Origin: Tuwongella immobilis
GTDB lineage: Bacteria > Planctomycetota > Planctomycetia > Gemmatales > Gemmataceae
Assembly (NCBI RefSeq): GCF_901538355.1
Contig: NZ_LR593887.1
Location: 3,262,920-3,326,919 of the forward strand
Direction: 5' to 3'
DNA: 64,000 bases
This document shows positions 5,682-55,439 of this stretch, one piece after another. Every line of letters starts with the position of its first letter. The first letter of the stretch is position 1. A program made the translations under genes and the position numbers. Under the pieces are notes generated by a model. That model was not told the DNA's origin and made no database searches. It saw only the letters and a program-made list of their open reading frames with translations.

Positions 5682-8600
5682 TCACGGGTTGGGGCGGATC
5701 GTCGTCGAATCGCTGGGAATGACCATTGCGGGTATGGCGGGTGGGCCGGGCAACGGCGCGGGAATTCCACCCAGATTCGGGCTTGCGGGATCGAGAATCC
5801 ACAGCGTTCGTTTCCCGGGAATTTGCATGGCATCAATGAGGAGTTTGTCTCGCCGCTGCAAGACGCGCACCAATGCCTCGCTTCCCAGACGGAATAGCGT
5901 CAATTGCCCACGAATTTGCCGTTGCTGTTCGCGGTGAATCTGCCATCCCATCCAGCGGATTCCTGGAGCAATTCCCGCATCTGGTCCGCTCATTGCCTGG
6001 AGCAATCCGGCAATGTCTTCCGCACGCGGGATTGTTGTGCGCGATTGCTTCCATGCCAGGAACGCATCCCGCACCGCTGTTGCGTCGGTGACTCGCTCGA
6101 AGGACGTCGCCTCCGCTGCACGGGTGAGCGACATCGACGATTCCAACGCTTTGCCGCGTGTGCGAATCGATTCGGCCTTCGCATCGTTCAAGGATCGATC
6201 CCGCGACTGAATCGCGCGGGCGACTTCGTGGTATGCTGGCACCACTTCTTGCGGCGGGTGCAGATCGTGCAGTGTGACCCCATCCAGTTGAATTCCCAGG
6301 CCACCTTCCACAATTCGGTCGCAGACTCGTTGGAGTTTTTTCGTCACTTCGTCTTGGATGGCCGAGCGTTCGACGGTGAGGATTTCCAGGAAGGCACGAC
6401 TCGCGATCGATTCACGCAAAATGCTCTCTGTTTGAGCACGAATCATCCCTTCGGGGTCGGTGCTGGCTTGGCGGAATTGCAGCGGGTCATGGATGGTAAA
6501 CCGAACCGTGGCCAGGAGTTCCACCAACCCACCATCGCCGGTGATTAACACCGATTCTTCGGGAATGCGCTGCGTGCCGGCTTGATGCACACTTGCCCAA
6601 GTGAGTTCCGCCCCGGCGGCGCTACTGCGATCGAACATCGTCGTTGCAGACCGGCCCAGCATTTCGGGACTGCGAAAGCCGATCTCGACGATCTGAATTC
6701 GATCGATGGCGATGCGATCGAGTTGTTCGATTGGCCACGGATAGCGCATGCTCAACCCTGGCGGAAGCACCGTCACGACTTCGCCAAAGCGTTTGACAAT
6801 CCCCGCTTCGCCCGGTTGAATGATGACAATTCCGGAAACCAGCCACACGCCCAAGCCAATGCTGCCGAGCATTGCCAGCGAGCGGGGCCAATCATGCAGT
6901 CGATCGTGAAGCCAATCGCCAAAATTCGTTCCTTGCGATGACCACCGCTCGATGGTTTGGCGGATTCGCGTGGCGGGAATCGCTTCGGGGAGCATTCGCC
7001 GCTCGAACATCAACAGCCGCATGGAGTTCAGCAGCACCAGCAGCGACCCGAGCTGGTGGTAAATCGCCGCCATCAGTGGCCCGCGCTCGAACCATTCCGG
7101 CGACCAGGCGAGCATTGGCCAAATCCAGGCAATCAGCGCGATTCCGACGAAATTCACGCCGAAACCGAAAATGAGGATATTTTGCCGCATGATTCGCAGC
7201 ATTTGCCGCGACAGCCGAATGAGAAACGGCAGCGGTCGCAGCGGTTCGCTCATCATCAACAGATCGCCGGACTCGACGACCAGATCGGTGCCGCCGACCG
7301 CGATGCCGATACTCGCTTTCGCAAGCGCTGGGGCATCGTTGATGCCATCGCCGATCATCATCACGGTGCGCGGCGGTTGATTCGGTTCGGTTTCCGCCGC
7401 AAGTCGGTCGATTTGCTCCACTTTTTGCTGCGGCCAAAGTTCGGCATGCACGCGAACGCCGGGAGGTAATTGTCGAACGATTGCATCGGCGACGGCTTGA
7501 CGATCGCCGGAGAGCATGGCGATTTCGCGGACTCCCAGTTGCTGCAAATCGGCTACCACCCCCGCCGCTTCCGGGCGAAGTCGGTCGCTGAGGCCCAGCG
7601 CGCCGAGCAAGACTTTTTCGCCGGCAATCAATACGGCGGTTTGCCCGGATTCGTCCATCTGCTGCAGGATGCGGCTGAACGATTCCGGGATCGGTACGCC
7701 GCGTTCTTGCAGCCAGCGACGCGAGCCGACCAGAATCGTTCCGGTTTGGCCGATGGCGAGAATTCCGCCGCCTGGATATGCTTCCAATCGCTTAATCGGT
7801 CGCAGCGACAACTGCGCGGATTTTGCAGCCGACAGGATCGCTCGGGCAATCGGGTGTTCGCTCCCCTGCTCGGCAGTCGCGGCCAAGGTGAGCAGTTCGT
7901 CGGGGCTGGTTCCTTGAAGTGGATAACGATCGACGACTTCGAGCTTGCCTTCGGTGAGCGTGCCGGTTTTATCGAATGCGACGACATTCACTTGGGCGAT
8001 CCGCTCGAATGCAGCCACCCGCCGCACCAGTACCCCCGTCCCGGCGAGTCGCCCCAAGGTGGCAATCACCGCGGCAGGTGTGGCCAAGACCAATGCACAC
8101 GGGCAAGCTACCACCAGCACCGAAAGAACCGGGTAGATGCTGACGCGAATGGCACTGCCCAGCCGAAGTCGCTCCGTCTCGGGGCGGAACGGCCCCATGT
8201 ATGCCAACAAACTCACCAGAAATGTCGCGGCGGCGAGTGCCAGCACAATCGGCAAAAACAGTCGCGCATAGCGATCCGCGATGCGTTCCAGCGTCGCTTT
8301 TTCTTGCAAGGCGCGGCCGGTGAGTTCGATCACTCGCCCCGCGACGGTATCCTTCGCCAAGTGTGTCGCTTCAATCGTCAGCGCACCGAGTTGATTGATA
8401 CTCCCGGCAAGAACCGCATCACCGGGCCGTTTATCGACCGGAACCGATTCCCCTGTCAGCGCCTTGACATCGACGGATGAGGTGCCTTGCCGAATGATTC
8501 CATCAACCGGAACTTTCCCACCGGGTTTCACCACCACGGTATCGCCGACTTGGAGTTCATCGACAAAGACCCGTTCTTCGGTGCCATCGCGGAGCCGCCA

Positions 8601-9059
8601 ACAGCGTTTCGGGAAGAGCTCAACGAGTCGGCCGACAGATCGCTGGGTTCGCTCGAATACCACCGCCTCGAGACATTCGCCGATAAGCCCGATGAGGACC
8701 ACTTCGGCGGCGACGAGCGGTTCACCGACCAAAATCGCGGCAATGCAGGCAATCGCGAGCGCAAGATCCGCACCGAACCGCCCGTCGAGCAGCGAATCGA
8801 TCGAGCCATAGAGCACGCGAGCGCCGCCGAGAATCGCCGCCCAGAGCGCGAAGCGATAGCCCAGAATCGAGCGATCCCAAACCGGAAGCTCCCACCCGTT
8901 TTGGTTGAGCCACCCGGTGAGCAACGGCCCGAGATCCGCGCCAACCAGCAACGTCAACAAGGCGGTGAATGCGTATAGCGGAAGATGATTGGGGGAGTCG
9001 AATATCGTCTCGGTGGCGAGCCGTTCACGATGCATGGAGCATGCCCCCAAAATTCGCAA
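5682..9059 (-). CDS. P1B-type metal-transporting ATPase fused to an SPFH (HflK-like) domain
   Basis: One uninterrupted 1125-residue frame holds two modules. Residues 1-690 are a heavy-metal P-type ATPase: eight likely membrane helices, TGES actuator motif at 202-205, CPC ion site in helix 6 (319-321), phosphorylation Asp363 in DKTGTLTEG, HP motif at 402-403 and GDGINDAP at 570-577. No N-terminal metal-binding CxxC domain is present. The last helix reads YHQLGSLLVLLNSMRLL, with His668 where zinc pumps usually have Asp, so the ion cannot be assigned. Residues about 727-747 form another helix, followed by an SPFH domain (EAGIVKRFG, LPPGLSMRYPWPIEQLDR) and a helical tail to 1125. This half resembles HflK. 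Downstream are hflC and hflK homologues. An alternative start is Met9. Confidence 0.9.
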   Translation of the reverse strand: MRILGACSMHRERLATETIFDSPNHLPLYAFTALLTLLVGADLGPLLTGWLNQNGWELPVWDRSILGYRFALWAAILGGARVLYGSIDSLLDGRFGADLALAIACIAAILVGEPLVAAEVVLIGLIGECLEAVVFERTQRSVGRLVELFPKRCWRLRDGTEERVFVDELQVGDTVVVKPGGKVPVDGIIRQGTSSVDVKALTGESVPVDKRPGDAVLAGSINQLGALTIEATHLAKDTVAGRVIELTGRALQEKATLERIADRYARLFLPIVLALAAATFLVSLLAYMGPFRPETERLRLGSAIRVSIYPVLSVLVVACPCALVLATPAAVIATLGRLAGTGVLVRRVAAFERIAQVNVVAFDKTGTLTEGKLEVVDRYPLQGTSPDELLTLAATAEQGSEHPIARAILSAAKSAQLSLRPIKRLEAYPGGGILAIGQTGTILVGSRRWLQERGVPIPESFSRILQQMDESGQTAVLIAGEKVLLGALGLSDRLRPEAAGVVADLQQLGVREIAMLSGDRQAVADAIVRQLPPGVRVHAELWPQQKVEQIDRLAAETEPNQPPRTVMMIGDGINDAPALAKASIGIAVGGTDLVVESGDLLMMSEPLRPLPFLIRLSRQMLRIMRQNILIFGFGVNFVGIALIAWIWPMLAWSPEWFERGPLMAAIYHQLGSLLVLLNSMRLLMFERRMLPEAIPATRIRQTIERWSSQGTNFGDWLHDRLHDWPRSLAMLGSIGLGVWLVSGIVIIQPGEAGIVKRFGEVVTVLPPGLSMRYPWPIEQLDRIAIDRIQIVEIGFRSPEMLGRSATTMFDRSSAAGAELTWASVHQAGTQRIPEESVLITGDGGLVELLATVRFTIHDPLQFRQASTDPEGMIRAQTESILRESIASRAFLEILTVERSAIQDEVTKKLQRVCDRIVEGGLGIQLDGVTLHDLHPPQEVVPAYHEVARAIQSRDRSLNDAKAESIRTRGKALESSMSLTRAAEATSFERVTDATAVRDAFLAWKQSRTTIPRAEDIAGLLQAMSGPDAGIAPGIRWMGWQIHREQQRQIRGQLTLFRLGSEALVRVLQRRDKLLIDAMQIPGKRTLWILDPASPNLGGIPAPLPGPPAIPAMVIPSDSTTIRPNP

Positions 9060-9340
9060 CAGGATGACGAATCAGCGGATACAATGATTGTACAAAGTCC
9101 GACGCATGCTGCTAGAGAACGCAATCCAGAAATGGTGGACCCGAACGGGGAGCGAATCGCTTGGTCTGAGTCTCGCTTTGCAATTCTTCTGGGATCGTGG
9201 GCGAATGCTTGTCCAGACAGAATTGGGGATCTATAAGTAGGTTGACTTCAAAGGTGTCATAGAAGGTGAAGTAGGCCGTGCCGCTCGCAAAGTTGACCGG
9301 CCCCCCTACCTCGGAACCGCCTGGGTAAGGATGATTGATC

Positions 9341-9976
9341 GTGAACGCACCTGCAACTCCGTCTGATTTGTCAGATCTCTCCGATGGTGCCGACGGAACC
9401 GTCTTCAATGGTACGGTCGATTTGCCGCGAATTCGCCGAGCGGTTCGGGAAATTCTGATTGCAGTCGGCGAAGATCCAGACCGCGAAGGTTTGCTGGAAA
9501 CGCCGGATCGTGTGGCTCGCATGTATGCCGAGATTTTCTCCGGGCTGCATGTCGATCCGCGCGTGCATCTGAAGCGCACCTTCACGCAAAAGCACGATGA
9601 AATGGTGTTGGTGAAGGATATCGAATTTTCCAGCATGTGCGAGCATCACCTGCTGCCGTTCATGGGCAAGGCGCATTTGGCCTATCTGCCCAACGGCCAA
9701 GTCGTTGGCATCAGCAAGCTGGCTCGAATCGTCGATATGGTCGCCCGTCGCCCGCAAGTGCAAGAACGCATGACCGAGGAACTGGCCGATCTGATGATGA
9801 CCGAACTGAATGCCCGTGGCTGTGGGGTCATTCTGGAAGCGGCGCACACCTGCATGAGCATTCGCGGCGTGCATAAGCCCGGTGCCATGACCATGACTAG
9901 CGCCATGCGAGGAGCGTTCCTCGCCTCCGCAACCCGTGCCGAACTCATGGCCCTGATCTTCTCAACCCGCCGATAA
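9341..9976 (+). CDS. folE: GTP cyclohydrolase I
   Basis: FolE converts GTP to 7,8-dihydroneopterin triphosphate, the first step of folate synthesis. The 211-residue product has the zinc ligands in CEHHLLPF and in [10 protein letters not shown], plus the [13 protein letters not shown] and [15 protein letters not shown] segments of the active-site region. The C-terminus is complete. The frame extends to a TTG at 9335, but the AAGGA ribosome site at 9327-9331 lies 9 bases before the GTG at 9341 and only 3 before the TTG, so GTG was chosen. It stands alone, divergent from the metal ATPase operon, with a 281-base intergenic region holding no clear promoter or riboswitch. Confidence 0.95.
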
Positions 9977-10103
9977 TCCGAGTTATCCGGGGGTATGACG
10001 GTCTCAGAATTTCCTGCCGACCATCCCCATTCGCACCGAACTTGCTATACTCACAGTAATCTGCTTCGATGCGAATCGTGATGGTTTTGGCGAGGATCAT
10101 TCG

Positions 10104-30038: not shown

Positions 30039-30121
30039 ACGCGGTATTCTGCCCTCCATTCACGATGATGCCCCCCTGCGGAACGATGCGTTTCGCGGGG
30101 GATTCTCAAGGAGTGACGACC

Positions 30122-31087
30122 GTGCGGACACTGATTACCGGCGGTGGGGGGTTCATTGGCTCCCACCTTTGCGAACGATTTCTGGCCGAGGGTCACTCGG
30201 TAATCTGTGTCGATAACTTCATTACCGGCACGCTGTCGAACCTGGACGGGTTCCGAAATGATCCCCGGTTCAGCTTTGTCGGGCACGATATTTCGCACCC
30301 GCTGCAAATTCGTGGGCCAATCGATAATGTCTTGCACTTTGCCAGCCCCGCCAGTCCGGTGGATTATCTGAATTATCCCATTCAGACGCTCAAAGTCGGC
30401 TCCCTGGGCACGCACAACACGCTGGGATTGGCGAAGGCCAAAGGCGCACGCTACCTCGTTGCCAGCACCAGCGAAGTCTACGGCGATCCGGAAGTGCATC
30501 CCCAGCGCGAAGACTATTGGGGCCACGTCAATCCGGTGGGGGTTCGCGGTGTTTACGATGAGGCCAAACGCTTCTCCGAAGCGATGGTCATGGCGTACTA
30601 TCGCACGCATAATGTCAACACGCACATCGTTCGCATTTTCAACACCTACGGCGAACGGATGCGGCTCGATGACGGTCGAGTGCTGCCGAATTTCATGGGC
30701 CAAGCGCTACGGGGCGATCCGCTGACCATTTACGGCGATGGGTCGCAGACGCGCAGTTTCTGCTATGTTTCGGATTTGGTCGAAGGGATCTTTCGATTGT
30801 TGTTTACCGATCATCACGATCCGGTAAACCTTGGAAATCCCGAAGAAGTGACGATTCTGGAATTCGCGCAGGAAATTCGGGCGATGTCCGGAAGTGCCAG
30901 CACGATTGCCTACAAGCCGCTGCCCGCGGATGATCCCAAGATTCGGAAACCCGATATTTCCAAAGCCCGACAACTGCTCGGCTGGGAGCCGAAAGTCAAT
31001 CGGCACGAAGGGCTTGCGCGAACGCTGCGCTATTTCCAAGAGAAAGTTGCCAGCGAACAAACCCGCAAAATTGCCAAGGGTGCCTGA
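30122..31087 (+). CDS. UDP-glucuronate decarboxylase-like NAD-dependent epimerase
   Basis: This short-chain dehydrogenase-type enzyme would convert UDP-glucuronate to UDP-xylose for surface polysaccharide. The 321-residue product has the NAD loop [15 protein letters not shown], a [18 protein letters not shown] segment typical of the UXS group, [14 protein letters not shown], the catalytic YDEAK, and an [20 protein letters not shown] segment. The AAGGAG site at 30108-30113 is 8 bases before the GTG at 30122, so that start was preferred over 30065 and 30113. Assignment to UXS is by motif pattern; other UDP-sugar decarboxylases are possible. Confidence 0.85.
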
Positions 31088-31430: not shown

Positions 31431-32258
31431 GTGTTGACGCGCTGCCGACCGTATTTGCCTGTCTTCTGTCTGCTGGCTGCCGTGCTGATTGTGCTGGTCG
31501 CCCCGGATTTCGTGTTCGCTCAGGAAGGCGCTGAAGGCGAGAAGCCGAAAGAAAACCTGGTGATGTTCATGATCAAGTCGGCAGGGGTCGTCTTCGGACC
31601 GCTGCTGTTGATTATCTCGATCATTCTGGTTGCCTTGATTGTGCTTCTGGCCATGGATCTTCGTGGCTCGCAAGCGATTCCGCCCGGCTTCGTGGATGAG
31701 TTCACCGACACCGTGAACAAACGCAAGTTCAAGGAAGCATTCGAGTTGGCCAAGAACGACACCTCTTTCTTGGCCCGCGTGCTCACCGCTGGCATGAGCC
31801 GCCTGCAATACGGCGTGGAAGATGCCCGCGACGCCGCCCGAAACATGATCGAAAGCATTCGATCCGATAAAGATCAAAAGAATAACTACACCGCCGTCAT
31901 CGGAACCCTGGGACCAATGCTCGGGCTGGTCGGCACGGTGTTCGGGATGATTCTGGCGTTCATGGAATTGAGCCAAGGGGGCACGCCAAACCCCTCCAAG
32001 TTGGCAGACGGGATTTCGCACGCTCTGGTGGTGACCCTGCTGGGCATCGCCCTGTCGGTGCCGGCGATCTTCTTCAATGCGTTCTTCAAGAACCGCATCA
32101 CCCGGATCACCATGGATACCGAACACATTGCGGATGATCTGCTGACCCAGATGTACCACAACTCCAAGAAGGCTGGTCCGGCTGCTCCGCCGGCTGGCCC
32201 CGGCGCTCCGCCGATGCCCGGTGCCCCGGCTGGTGCCCCTCCGGTTCGCCCGGCGTAA
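31431..32258 (+). CDS. exbB: ExbB/TolQ/MotA-type proton channel subunit
   Basis: The 275-residue product is the pentameric channel part of a Ton/Tol-type motor. It has an N-terminal cleavable signal (to about FVFAQ, residue 31), a first membrane helix (GPLLLIISIILVALIVLLAM), a cytoplasmic domain, and helices 2 and 3 in TAVIGTLGPMLGLVGTVFGMI and SHALVVTLLGIALSVPAIFF, the conserved core of the family. The C-terminal 30 residues are a Pro/Ala/Gly-rich tail. The GTG at 31431 is 9 bases after AAGGAG and gives a good signal peptide; an upstream ATG at 31371 lacks support. Two exbD genes follow. Confidence 0.9.
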   Translation: MLTRCRPYLPVFCLLAAVLIVLVAPDFVFAQEGAEGEKPKENLVMFMIKSAGVVFGPLLLIISIILVALIVLLAMDLRGSQAIPPGFVDEFTDTVNKRKFKEAFELAKNDTSFLARVLTAGMSRLQYGVEDARDAARNMIESIRSDKDQKNNYTAVIGTLGPMLGLVGTVFGMILAFMELSQGGTPNPSKLADGISHALVVTLLGIALSVPAIFFNAFFKNRITRITMDTEHIADDLLTQMYHNSKKAGPAAPPAGPGAPPMPGAPAGAPPVRPA

Positions 32259-32368
32259 TTCCTCGGATCGTCGCCGAGTTGCCTCCATCGTGAGACGGAA
32301 GCGGACTCGGCGGCGGATTGCGTGGCATTGGGAATTTCCCACAAAGATCATTCGACGAGGAATGCATC

Positions 32369-32857
32369 GTGTCGCACGGCGCAGAAGATACCGGAGCACC
32401 CAACCTGACACCACTTCTCGACGTGGTGCTTCAGTTGATTATGTTCTTTATGTTGTGTGCGAATTTCGTGATGGAGCAGGTCAACGAATCGATCAAGCTC
32501 CCCGAAGCCACCGCTGCCAAGGCTTTGGACCGCACGCAAACCAGTCTGCTGTATTTGAACGTCGCTTTTAATGGTCACGTCCTCCGCACCGATGGTCCGC
32601 CGTTGACGAATCCCAAGGAATTGGAAGTCTACATGCGGAACCAGTATCGTGACATTCAGGCGATTTTGCGGGCCGATAAGAAAGGCGCGACGGAGAAGGT
32701 CGAAACCACCGTCATCATTCGCGCGGATGCCCGTTGCACCTTCGAACAAGTGTACAACGTCATGCTCGCATGCAAAGCAGCCGGATTCGAAAAACTCCAA
32801 CTTCGGGCCATTGTCTCGGATGGAACATCCGCGACCGGCGGAGGTGCCGCATCATGA
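32369..32857 (+). CDS. exbD: ExbD/TolR-type motor subunit, first paralogue
   Basis: The 162-residue product has a short N-terminus, one membrane helix and a periplasmic domain. The proton-carrying Asp is in [18 protein letters not shown] (residue 18), as in ExbD and TolR. The periplasmic part includes [20 protein letters not shown], the usual ExbD fold. The GTG at 32369 follows GAGGA (32357-32361) by 7 bases and was preferred to the ATG at 32318. The stop overlaps the next exbD start by 4 bases (ATGA). Confidence 0.88.
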
Positions 32858-33345
32858 GCAAGAAGAAGCATGGTCCCGGTGAAGAGGATGTCAAAGTCGA
32901 TCTCCCCATCACCCCGATGTTGGACATGGCGTTTCAGCTGATGGCGTTTTTCATCTTCACGTTCAAACCCCAGCCAACGGAAGGACAGATTTCGCTGTTC
33001 CTGCCGCAGCTAAAGGGGAACGAGAGCGTGCAGATGGCTCCTCCTCCGCCGGATACTCCAGTGGAAGCCAAGGAAGAGTACACCATCATCGTTCGGGCAG
33101 CCGAAGGTCAGATTGCCTCGATCGATTTCCGCGGTCAAGGGGCACCCGAACCATTGGGAACTCAGCCGTCTCGATTGTTGGAACGCTTGAATCAGATTCC
33201 ACGACGCGATGGGGATAATGTCTCCGTCAAAATTGAGTCGGATCCCAAATTGAACTACAATCAATTGATCCGATTGATGGATGTCTGCATCAAGGCGAAG
33301 TTCCCCAGCGTGGGCGTGGCTCCGCTCTCAGCCAGCAGTCAGTGA
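32854..33345 (+). CDS. exbD: ExbD/TolR-type motor subunit, second paralogue
   Basis: The 163-residue product is a second, divergent ExbD. The membrane helix has the essential Asp at residue 24 in [19 protein letters not shown]. The periplasmic domain is different from the first copy, with a Pro-rich segment ([20 protein letters not shown]) and a [19 protein letters not shown] end. Its ATG overlaps the first exbD stop, so both are coupled and may form a heteromeric ExbD pair on one ExbB ring. Confidence 0.88.
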
Positions 33346-33385
33346 GTCGAATCCAGTTCGACCGATTGGGAATGACAATCTTTCG

Positions 33386-33419
33386 ACGATCGGCTCGTTG
33401 TTCTGACGAGTCCGATCGT
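33386..33419 (+). terminator. Hairpin downstream of the second exbD
   Basis: ACGATCGGCTCGT (33386-33398) pairs with 33406-33419, with one bulged T, forming a 13-base-pair stem with a 7-base loop. A short TT and an AT-rich stretch follow. It lies between exbD and the next gene and may end or attenuate the motor transcript. Confidence 0.5.
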
Positions 33420-33514
33420 TTCAATTGGATCCCAAGAAATTCACGAGTGAGCTGCGCGAATTTTTCGGAACTCATTCCAGACAAGCCGCGTCTCAATCCC
33501 ATCGAGAACCAATC

Positions 33515-34501
33515 ATGGCATCCAATCGTCCCATGAACCGAATCCGATCATTGATTTTCCCGTCTCTCGGGGCCTGGGTTGTTGCTCTTTGTTTCGCATC
33601 ATTGGCGAGCGCACAGTCGGCTGCGCCACCCGAATCGGAGACACCGGATCTCAGCCAGTACGAGCGCATTCCAGTCATGCCTCGACCGGAACGATCCTCG
33701 CTCAACGACGATACTCCCCGGACCAACCCGGAAATCGTCGTTCCCGAAGCGCCTGAATCCGAACGGGTGAAGATCGACCAATCGCTGTTTTGGTTCCAAG
33801 GTGTGGAAGACGATCAGCCCATCCGGAGTCAAATTGCGAACGAAGATGAGTTTCAAGCGTACAATTATGTGATGCTGTTCGCAAAGCATCAAGATGATGC
33901 CTTGCTCGACAAATACGCTCGTCGCAATGTTCCGTTAGCGAATCTCATTCGAGAAGTTCGCAAAGATTACTACCGAGAACTGCTCCATTTTCAGGGGCGT
34001 TTGAAATTTGTGCGGACGCTCAAGCCCACGCTCTCGCTTCAAGCCGAAGGGGTTCGAGAGATGTACGAGGGCTGGATTATCCCGGACAATGATTCCAACT
34101 TGCTCTGCGTATTGTTCTTGGAGAAGCCGGAAGGGATCAAGTTGGATGTGGAATTGGATTCGGTGCATGTGCGAGTCAACGGCTACTTCTTCAAGCTGAT
34201 GCGCTACGAATCCAAGGAAAAGAATCCCAAGACGAATGGGCAAATCTGGCGGCGTGCCCCCTTGCTGATGGCCAAGTCGTTGACGTTCTTTACGCCGGTG
34301 AGTACCAAACCGGATGCCTCGGAATTCAAAGCCTTGGCGGCGCTCCTGGCAGGCGGAATGCTGCTGACGACGATCATCCTGGTGGTGATCTTCCGACGAT
34401 CGGATCGAGTCGTCCGCGATGCCCCAGCAGTGCAGTCGATTCAGAAAAACCCGTTTGATGAAGAATCCGAATCGGCGACGAAATCGGAATCGGCAGGATG
34501 A
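33515..34501 (+). CDS. Secreted, C-terminally membrane-anchored protein, unknown
   Basis: The 328-residue product has a signal peptide (about residues 1-33, ending LASAQ), a large periplasmic domain with many charged residues, and a single C-terminal membrane helix (ALAALLAGGMLLTTIILVVIF, about 271-291) followed by a short acidic cytoplasmic tail. I do not recognise a family. The domain contains LLHFQGRLKFVRTL, MYEGWIIPDNDSNLLCVLFL and YFFKLMRYESKEK. Its place between exbD and the toroid gene, on the same strand, suggests it belongs to the motor system. Met7 (33533) is an alternative start. Confidence 0.7.
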   Translation: MASNRPMNRIRSLIFPSLGAWVVALCFASLASAQSAAPPESETPDLSQYERIPVMPRPERSSLNDDTPRTNPEIVVPEAPESERVKIDQSLFWFQGVEDDQPIRSQIANEDEFQAYNYVMLFAKHQDDALLDKYARRNVPLANLIREVRKDYYRELLHFQGRLKFVRTLKPTLSLQAEGVREMYEGWIIPDNDSNLLCVLFLEKPEGIKLDVELDSVHVRVNGYFFKLMRYESKEKNPKTNGQIWRRAPLLMAKSLTFFTPVSTKPDASEFKALAALLAGGMLLTTIILVVIFRRSDRVVRDAPAVQSIQKNPFDEESESATKSESAG

Positions 34502-34580
34502 TGTTCGGGAGCCGATTCGTTCGGGATGGGTGATTTTGGAAGAATTGGCCGAGTTTGATGGATTTTTGCTAGGCGAGAAT

Positions 34581-34610
34581 CGGAATCCCTGTGAAAATAT
34601 GGGGATTCCG
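34581..34610 (+). other. Intergenic hairpin before the toroid gene
   Basis: A perfect 9-base inverted repeat, CGGAATCCC/GGGATTCCG (34581-34589 with 34602-34610), with a 12-base A-rich loop. There is no T-run. It lies 91 bases before the ATG of the toroid gene and may be a processing or attenuation element. Confidence 0.45.
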
Positions 34611-34700
34611 TGGATCGATATGTGTTCAGCGAAAACGGTGTTCTGAGGTCGTCCCCTGTCGATCACCGATCCGCTCATTCGGATCGAAGAGGAGAAACAA

Positions 34701-36290
34701 ATGGCAGATCAACCGGTTGCGAATGCTGGTGCCAAACCAGCAGATGCAAAGGCCCGCCCGCAAGCCGCCGCGGTGATTCGCCGCATGGCGGTGACCCAAG
34801 AAGATGCTCGGGAGCGTCTGCTGAAACGGCAGCTTCCCGCTTGGGTGATTTCGGGGGCATTCCACCTCGTATTCATGGTGCTGTTCGTCGTGTTCTTCTC
34901 CGGGGAAACGGCTGCCCCGGTGGAAGCCAACGACAACTTGGTCGAAACCGTCGTGGAAGACAAGGCGGAAGAACCCGAACAAGATTTGACCAACCCGGAT
35001 ATGGGCTTTGAGTCGGATCTTGCGGCCGCGACCGAAGCCGACCGCGAAGAACCGGAAAACGTCGAAGCTCCGGTTGTTCCCGAAGAGGCGATCGGCAGCC
35101 CATCTGAAACCTCCGAAGCTCCCACGCAAACGCTGGCTCCTCCAGGCGCGAACGAAGTGATGCCCAACGCGGGCACCGCGGTCGGACCGGAAGGAACGGT
35201 TAAGGCGGGTGATGGCGGCGCGGGTGGATCGTTCGCCACTCCTGGCATGCGTGGTCGCTCGGGTGCCACCAAAGATGCCTTGCTGAAATCTGGTGGCGGT
35301 AACCAGCTCTCCGAAGCCGCTGTCGCGCGGGGCTTGGAATGGCTGGCTCGTCAGCAAAAGCCAGACGGCCGCTGGGTTTACGATGGTTCCAGCGCGGGTG
35401 ACACCGTTGCGGCCACCGGAATGGCGCTGCTCCCCTTCCTCGCAGCCGGTCAAACGCACAAGTCGGGTGCCGCCAAGAGTGGCAAGAATTATTCCAAGAA
35501 AATCGCGCTGGGGCTGGAGTATCTCAAGAGCCGTCAGCAACCCAGTGGTGACTTCACGGGTGCCTCGTCGATGTACTCGACCGCGATTGCCGCGGTTGCG
35601 TTGTGCGAAGCCTACGGGATGACCAAAGATCCTTCGTTGAAGCGTCATGCCCAATCGGTTCTGAATTTCATCATGAAGGGTCAAGGCAACAACGGCTCCT
35701 GGGGGTATCGCGCAGGCTCGACCGGGGATACCTCGATCGTTGGCTGGCAGATTCAAGCCCTGAAGTCCGGGAAAATCGCTGATCTGACCGTCTCGGATGA
35801 AATCATGAAGCGAGCCAATAGCTTCTTGGACACCGTCTCCACCGAATCGGGTGCCCGCTATGGCTACACCTCGCGTGGCGGTACGCCGTCGCTGACCGCG
35901 GTTGGTCTGCTCTGCCGTCAATATTCCGCGAACTGGGGTCCGAACAACCCGGCGTTGGCTGCGGGGGTTGACTTCCTGGTGAAAGGCTCGGCACCGCAAA
36001 AGGGTCGCTTTGACATGTATGTGTACTACTACGCGACTCAGGTAGTCCACTTCTACGGTGGTGCCAAGTGGTCCAAGGATTGGAATCCGAAGATGCGCGA
36101 TATGCTCATCGACATGCAAGTGAAGTTGGCCGGGCCGGATCAAGGAAGCTGGGCGGCGGATACGGGTTCAATCGGGTCGCACTGCGGTCGATTGGGCACC
36201 ACCTGCTTGGCACTGCTGACCTTGGAAGTCTACTATCGTCACCTGCCGTTGTACAAACGCGATGCGGGTGGTTTGAAAGACCTGGATTGA
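34701..36290 (+). CDS. TonB/TolA-like membrane-anchored protein with alpha/alpha-toroid domain
   Basis: The 529-residue product has a basic cytoplasmic N-terminus (1-46), one membrane helix (47-67) reading WVISGAFHLVFMVLFVVFF, an acidic Pro-rich linker (68-200) and a C-terminal domain (205-529) of prenyltransferase/squalene-cyclase type repeats. Repeat units include GLEWLARQQKPDGRW, LEYLKSRQQPSGDF, FIMKGQGNNGSWGYR and a final PDQGSWAAD. The helix carries Ser51-x3-His55, the same signature as TonB (S16, H20) and TolA (S18, H22), which contact ExbBD/TolQR. The DxDD cyclase motif is absent, so this is probably a binding toroid rather than a terpene cyclase. The ribosome site GAGGAG precedes the ATG. 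Confidence 0.85.
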   Translation: MADQPVANAGAKPADAKARPQAAAVIRRMAVTQEDARERLLKRQLPAWVISGAFHLVFMVLFVVFFSGETAAPVEANDNLVETVVEDKAEEPEQDLTNPDMGFESDLAAATEADREEPENVEAPVVPEEAIGSPSETSEAPTQTLAPPGANEVMPNAGTAVGPEGTVKAGDGGAGGSFATPGMRGRSGATKDALLKSGGGNQLSEAAVARGLEWLARQQKPDGRWVYDGSSAGDTVAATGMALLPFLAAGQTHKSGAAKSGKNYSKKIALGLEYLKSRQQPSGDFTGASSMYSTAIAAVALCEAYGMTKDPSLKRHAQSVLNFIMKGQGNNGSWGYRAGSTGDTSIVGWQIQALKSGKIADLTVSDEIMKRANSFLDTVSTESGARYGYTSRGGTPSLTAVGLLCRQYSANWGPNNPALAAGVDFLVKGSAPQKGRFDMYVYYYATQVVHFYGGAKWSKDWNPKMRDMLIDMQVKLAGPDQGSWAADTGSIGSHCGRLGTTCLALLTLEVYYRHLPLYKRDAGGLKDLD

Positions 36291-44505: not shown

Positions 44506-44512
44506 CTTTGAG

Positions 44513-44586
44513 TTGCGGCGACAGGATTCGAACCTATGACCTCCAGGTTATGAGCCTGGCGAGCTAACCAACTGCTCCACGCCGCG
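44513..44586 (-). tRNA. Initiator tRNA-fMet (CAT), copy 1
   Basis: 74-base cloverleaf with anticodon CAT in loop CTCATAA. Initiator marks: unpaired C1 opposite A72, and A11-U24 in the D stem. The anticodon stem is CCAGG/CCTGG, so the three pairs next to the loop read A-U, G-C, G-C instead of three G-C pairs. The T stem has a G-U pair (ATAGG/CCTGT). CCA is not encoded. Nearly identical to copy 2, with one base difference. Confidence 0.95.
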
Positions 44587-44785: not shown

Positions 44786-44788
44786 AAG

Positions 44789-44862
44789 TTGCGGCGACAG
44801 GATTCGAACCTGTGACCTCCAGGTTATGAGCCTGGCGAGCTAACCAACTGCTCCACGCCGCG
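44789..44862 (-). tRNA. Initiator tRNA-fMet (CAT), copy 2
   Basis: Same 74-base structure as copy 1: C1 opposite A72, A11-U24, anticodon CAT, stem CCAGG/CCTGG. It differs from copy 1 by one base in the T stem, which here is fully Watson-Crick (ACAGG/CCTGT). CCA is not encoded. It has its own promoter and terminator. Confidence 0.95.
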
Positions 44863-55215: not shown

Positions 55216-55287
55216 TCCCTGATAGCTCAGCGGTAGAGCAGCCGACTGTTAATCGGCTGGTCGTAGGTTCGAATCCTACTCGGGGAG
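55216..55287 (+). tRNA. tRNA-Asn (GTT), copy 1
   Basis: A 72-base cloverleaf with anticodon GTT in loop CTGTTAA, acceptor stem TCCCTGA/TCGGGGA with one U-G pair, D-arm AGCTCAGCGGTAGAGCA, T-loop TTCGAAT and discriminator G. CCA is not encoded. Confidence 0.95.
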
Positions 55288-55340: not shown

Positions 55341-55412
55341 TCCCCGATAGCTCAGCGGTAGAGCAGCCGACTGTTAATCGGCTGGTCGTAGGTTCGAATC
55401 CTACTCGGGGAG
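55341..55412 (+). tRNA. tRNA-Asn (GTT), copy 2
   Basis: Identical to copy 1 except for one base in the acceptor stem, which is fully paired here (TCCCCGA/TCGGGGA). It follows copy 1 by 53 bases. Confidence 0.95.
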
Positions 55413-55439
55413 CTTGATTCCATTCAACGAACTTTTCTC

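Follow-up and report, generated by a model that had tools for sequence, protein, structure and literature searches.

A putative ExbB-ExbD envelope motor with an alpha/alpha-toroid-tipped, TonB/TolA-like transducer in Tuwongella immobilis

Introduction

Among the closest described counterparts of the locus considered here are the TonB-ExbB-ExbD and TolA-TolQ-TolR systems, for which cryo-electron microscopy of the Escherichia coli complexes has revealed how the anchor helix of the transducer meets the motor: Ser16 and His20 of TonB touch Ser34 and Trp38 of ExbB, and Ser18 and His22 of TolA touch Ser28 and Trp32 of TolQ (PMC12215075). More recently, TonB/TolA-like transducers tipped with a vWA domain have been described in PVC and other phyla, the Planctomycetes included, where their genes adjoin tolQ and a pair of dissimilar tolR genes (PMC12204202, 2025); further transducer systems of this kind are expected to be found, and the paper mentions no toroid, squalene or cyclase (PMC12204202). 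Here we analyze a block of five co-directed genes, namely exbB, two exbD genes, a gene for an OB-fold membrane protein and a gene for an anchored toroid protein, located at positions 31431-36290 of a 64,000-nucleotide stretch of the Tuwongella immobilis genome (NZ_LR593887.1, positions 3,262,920-3,326,919, forward strand; hereinafter, the window). With a probability that we put at roughly 0.75, this block encodes an ion-driven ExbB-ExbD envelope motor coupled to a TonB/TolA-like transducer, the tip of which is an alpha/alpha toroid.

So how does this locus compare with the known systems? With the vWA transducers, it shares a transmembrane helix containing the Ser/His pair, a disordered linker and a globular tip that is not of the TonB type, as well as the adjoining arrangement of a single tolQ/exbB gene with two different tolR/exbD genes; the difference is that a vWA tip and a TPR gene are found there (PMC12204202) and an alpha/alpha toroid and an OB-fold type I membrane protein here, the toroid tip giving no vWA match in either Pfam searches or structural comparison. 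The likeness to the TonB and Tol systems extends to the ion-path residues of the motor, the Ser-x3-His anchor helix, the linker and the periplasmic tip, whereas the absence of a TonB_C/TolA tip, of receptor plugs in the genome and of a detectable D-box pattern, along with the presence of two different ExbD chains, sets the locus apart. In the literature that could be searched, with subscription papers and preprints outside the coverage, we found no toroid-, squalene-cyclase- or prenyltransferase-type protein associated with ExbB/ExbD in planctomycetes, and the toroid tip of a TonB-like transducer thus appears to be undescribed in the searchable literature. A preliminary description of this DNA spoke of an undescribed system altogether; the novelty of the toroid tip stands, whereas the general idea was already embodied in the vWA-tipped transducers reported in 2025 (PMC12204202).

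The locus and its motor

The block consists of five open reading frames, all on the plus strand of the window, and both the gene set (exbB, two exbD, an anchored protein and the toroid protein) and the coordinates given in the preliminary description are exact throughout:

31431..32258, plus strand: exbB, 275 amino acids, GTG start at 31431 with AAGGAG ahead
32369..32857, plus strand: exbD1, 162 amino acids, GTG start at 32369 with GAGGA ahead
32854..33345, plus strand: exbD2, 163 amino acids, ATG start at 32854, overlapping exbD1 by 4 nucleotides
33515..34501, plus strand: anch, the OB-fold gene, 328 amino acids, ATG start at 33515
34701..36290, plus strand: toroid transducer gene, 529 amino acids, ATG start at 34701 with GAGGAG ahead

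The ExbB protein (Pfam MotA_ExbB, 6.8e-26) combines a signal peptide and a periplasmic extension with a three-transmembrane channel subunit of the MotA/TolQ/ExbB type, and its ortholog is present in all 59 relatives tested. Alignment with the solved ExbB structure 5sv0 shows that the equivalents of T148, T181 and P190 are retained and that E176 is replaced by His. ExbD1 (Pfam ExbD, 1.4e-19) carries Asp18 (codon 32420-32422) at the position of ExbD Asp25 in the alignment to 6tyi, and in the divergent second chain, ExbD2 (Pfam ExbD, 5.4e-14), Asp24 (codon 32923-32925) corresponds to Asp23 of TolR in the alignment to 9ddm. Because the Thr/Thr/Pro equivalents of ExbB and the membrane aspartates of both ExbD chains are kept, the three proteins would make up, as judged from their sequences, a competent-looking 5:2-type motor, the axle of which would most simply be an ExbD1-ExbD2 heterodimer.

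Elsewhere in the genome, a second ExbB-ExbD-ExbD locus (genome stretch 4588000-4604000, at 7724-9977 within that stretch, minus strand) adjoins a hisA-like gene and a gene for a long WD40/tricorn-like protein; no transducer could be recognised beside it.

The toroid protein and its anchor helix

The product of the last gene of the block has a cytoplasmic N-terminus, a single transmembrane helix, a disordered linker of 113 residues and a C-terminal alpha/alpha toroid:

34833..34901, plus strand: anchor helix, residues 45-67, with the codons of Ser51 at 34851-34853 and of His55 at 34863-34865
34902..35240, plus strand: disordered linker rich in Pro/Ala/Glu/Asp/Gly, residues 68-180
35241..36248, plus strand: alpha/alpha-toroid domain without DxDD, residues 181-516 (336 residues)

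The assignment of the C-terminal domain draws both on a Pfam match above the family cut-off (SQHop_cyclase_C, PF13243, 1.5e-07) and on an AlphaFold2 model built with 49 relatives, in which the confidence score (pLDDT) is mostly >90 over residues 200-510, the anchor helix is long, and the linker, 73% of which is P/E/D/A/G/S/T, falls mostly below 50. The best structural match of the toroid is the squalene-hopene cyclase 2sqc (Z 27.5, root-mean-square deviation 3.0 A over 285 residues); smaller cyclases, cellobiose 2-epimerases and GH76 enzymes rank next. In addition, Pec_lyase, a pectate-lyase toroid model, is matched by 21 of the 49 relatives, and many residues of the domain are invariant. Thus, the domain shares with squalene-hopene cyclase and other six-hairpin toroid proteins not only the fold but also detectable sequence homology. 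It differs from the cyclase in lacking both the DxDD acid motif and the second barrel, and in possessing a membrane anchor helix and a place in a motor operon. A terpene cyclase function was rejected because the DxDD motif was not found in this protein; the string occurs in 3 of 137 planctomycete toroid homologues, its position in the protein being unchecked. The fold allows a glycan or a prenyl/lipid ligand, although related folds do not prove the type of ligand.

The anchor helix, LPAWVISGAFHLVFMVLFVVFF, contains Ser51-x3-His55, a Ser/His pair of the type through which TonB and TolA meet their motors. A set of 137 distinct toroid homologues from planctomycetes, each 430 residues or longer, divides into 116 with SxxxH and 11 with SxxxN in the anchor, six with some other transmembrane helix and four with none; accordingly, SxxxH or SxxxN is found in 127 of the 137, against a background of SxxxH in nine of 373 other single-anchor open reading frames from the same loci. 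Across 167 sequences, conservation within the helix is highest at Ser51 (91%) and His55 (87%, with Asn in a further 5%); the other positions of the membrane stretch do not exceed 62%, and only P46 (82%) and W48 (77%), on the approach to this stretch, come close. The window protein lacks the Leu-x3-Ser half of the SHLS motif, having Phe62 and Phe66 instead; this half is described as less conserved in TonB as well (PMC12215075). Taken together with the TonB and TolA contacts cited above, the conservation of the pair supports the Ser51-x3-His55 helix as the likely motor-docking anchor of the toroid protein.

Natural His-to-Asn variants of the anchor (SxxxN) are present in several planctomycete loci. 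The same substitution is reportedly functional in E. coli TonB, where asparagine is said to replace His20 fully (Swayne and Postle 2011, as cited in PMC6957404).

The genome itself, a complete single contig of 6.69 Mb, was searched for TonB_C, TonB_2 and Plug domains, though not with a TolA model, and none was found; the same searches were positive in control genomes. An ordinary TonB system was rejected on these grounds. Most of the 59 genomes tested, this one included, are likewise without a TonB C-terminal domain. The OmpA domain yields a single match in the genome, below the cut-off. Of toroids, the genome encodes one that is anchored and four others of the secreted type.

Linkage, the OB-fold protein and a second architecture

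Linkage was counted from gene coordinates in 37 genomes of the family and in the sister family. The genes for exbB, the OB-fold protein and the toroid form one block in 20 of the 37 family genomes; in some genomes the block is split, with exbB-exbD1-exbD2 remaining intact elsewhere. In all 31 family genomes that carry it, the OB-fold gene adjoins at least one of the two, motor or toroid, and the same holds for 7/7 sister-family genomes. The same gene order recurs in many genera, so that the block is no chance juxtaposition, and any two of the parts are linked in some genomes where the third is not, which argues for a single functional unit. The toroid family as such is found in 90 of 99 genomes sampled across Planctomycetota. 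In genomes in which toroid and motor are not linked, a search for a conserved neighbor that would reveal the target of the toroid recovered only RecJ-like and unrelated genes as recurrent ones. Tandem duplication of the anchored toroid genes is seen in several genomes, and one copy in one genome looks split.

The OB-fold protein is of type I topology, with a signal peptide, helices, a periplasmic OB-fold domain (residues about 156-258), a C-terminal transmembrane helix and a basic cytoplasmic tail, RRSDR; it has no Pfam or NCBIfam match. The OB region is modeled by AlphaFold2 with pLDDT >90 and matches OB-fold proteins at Z 7-8, and some relatives, as read from the alignment, apparently contain two OB-type domains. 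We refrained from deriving a function from these structural matches, which are generic (Z 7-8, many of them nucleic-acid-binding OB proteins). The strict linkage suggests an accessory role dedicated to the motor-toroid machine.

A separate line of support for coupling between toroid and motor comes, at the level of sequence, from a different architecture found in other planctomycetes, in which a toroid protein of 700-1220 residues with two or three N-terminal transmembrane helices is encoded directly after exbD, usually with exbB just before. In 12 of 13 such cases, SxxxH is located in the last transmembrane helix, the exit of which from the membrane would point the same way as in TonB. In the phylogenetic tree, all anchored toroids fall on one side of a branch supported at 99/99, with the secreted paralogues on the other, and the toroids with two or three transmembrane helices represent about three lineages within the anchored group.

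Alternative explanations and a possible mechanism

The preliminary description held that an ion-driven motor is present, that no normal TonB tip accompanies it and that the toroid takes the place of the usual TonB/TolA tip, and it named the absence of conserved linkage in relatives as grounds for abandoning the idea. The data support this proposal: the catalytic residues are kept in the alignments of ExbB, ExbD1 and ExbD2, the TonB C-terminal domain is missing genome-wide, and the five-gene block recurs in 20 of the 37 family genomes; the Ser-x3-His pair of the anchor helix is an independent proxy in favor of contact between the toroid protein and the motor. Several observations nevertheless weigh against a toroid-tipped transducer. 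The strict D-box pattern of TonB is not enriched after the anchor helix (4 observed vs 9.8 expected in shuffles). On the side of ExbB, the family serine of the first transmembrane helix seems to be kept, and the position of Trp38 looks aliphatic, in an alignment made by eye that is a lead only. Beyond the family, exbBD genes are usually not found beside the anchored toroid, and it is the motif that speaks for coupling there. Finally, the toroid may be an enzyme, as are proteins of related folds.

This last point leads to the alternative that we consider unlikely and yet the strongest of those examined, namely that the toroid acts on glycans or isoprenoids as a periplasmic enzyme tethered to the membrane, with the motor docking to regulate or position it rather than to pull. 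The fold common to cyclases, cellobiose 2-epimerases and GH76 enzymes, the Pec_lyase matches, the many invariant residues and the UDP-xylose synthase-like gene that lies a short way upstream, here and in several relatives, all speak for such a role; against it stand the absence of the cyclase DxDD, the fact that no catalytic set of any of these enzyme families is shown, and the long disordered linker behind a motor-docking helix, which is the plan of TonB and TolA. Another possibility is that the motor drives a different transducer, or has none in the cluster, and that the toroid gene is a passive neighbor. This would accommodate the separation of toroid and motor in several relatives and the undetected D-box pattern, but is hard to reconcile with linkage kept in many genera, the SxxxH pair, the second exbB-exbD-toroid arrangement and the genome-wide lack of TonB C-terminal domains; we regard it as improbable. 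Least credible, to the point of being nearly negligible, is a true TonB or TolA the tip of which has diverged beyond recognition: the three-part layout of helix, disordered linker and globular tip is indeed the same, but this explanation is contradicted by the toroid fold, in which 336 residues make up an all-helical tip with homology to squalene cyclases, and not an alpha/beta domain of ~90 residues as in TonB and TolA.

If the block does encode a motor with a toroid-tipped transducer, five ExbB subunits would form the ring, and ExbD1 and ExbD2 the two-chain axle, for a 5:1:1 stoichiometry. The single N-terminal helix of the toroid protein would dock on the outside of the ring via Ser51 and His55, and the flexible 113-residue linker would span the periplasm, bearing the toroid, which might grip a partner; this could be a protein of the outer membrane, one associated with peptidoglycan, or else a glycan or lipid held in the cavity. 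Ion- (proton-) driven motion of the motor would then pull on this partner, presumably exerting force on the outer membrane, with the OB-fold type I membrane protein as a dedicated accessory of the same machine. Our best guess at the purpose is Tol-like upkeep of the envelope, with the handling of surface glycans as an alternative.

These findings suggest that these bacteria pull on the outer envelope with an apparently undescribed part. The toroid family becomes a concrete candidate for energising the outer membrane in planctomycetes, with His55 as a testable residue, and the TonB anchor helix would be an exchangeable motor adaptor that bears different tips (beta-fold, vWA or toroid); hundreds of proteins known only by their matches to squalene-cyclase families become candidate motor parts. 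A broader and rather doubtful possibility is that Planctomycetes largely replaced TonB/TolA by phylum-wide toroid-tipped transducers that pull non-protein cargo, surface glycan or outer-membrane lipid, in the cavity. If true, cargo-pulling toroids would add a third output mode to the two of 5:2 motors, which are the opening of receptors and the release of Pal.

Flanking genes and other features of the window

Upstream, the block is flanked by an RND pump and a UDP-glucuronate-decarboxylase-like gene, and downstream by mutY on the opposite strand, the RND and mutY names being read from sequence. The UDP-glucuronate-decarboxylase/UDP-xylose-synthase-like gene (window 30065-31087) lies a short way ahead of exbB, as it also does in five relatives, and this may hint at an involvement with surface glycans. 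The window further contains two closely spaced tRNA pairs, Met/Met on the minus strand (44512-44586 and 44788-44862) and Asn/Asn on the plus strand (55216-55287 and 55341-55413).

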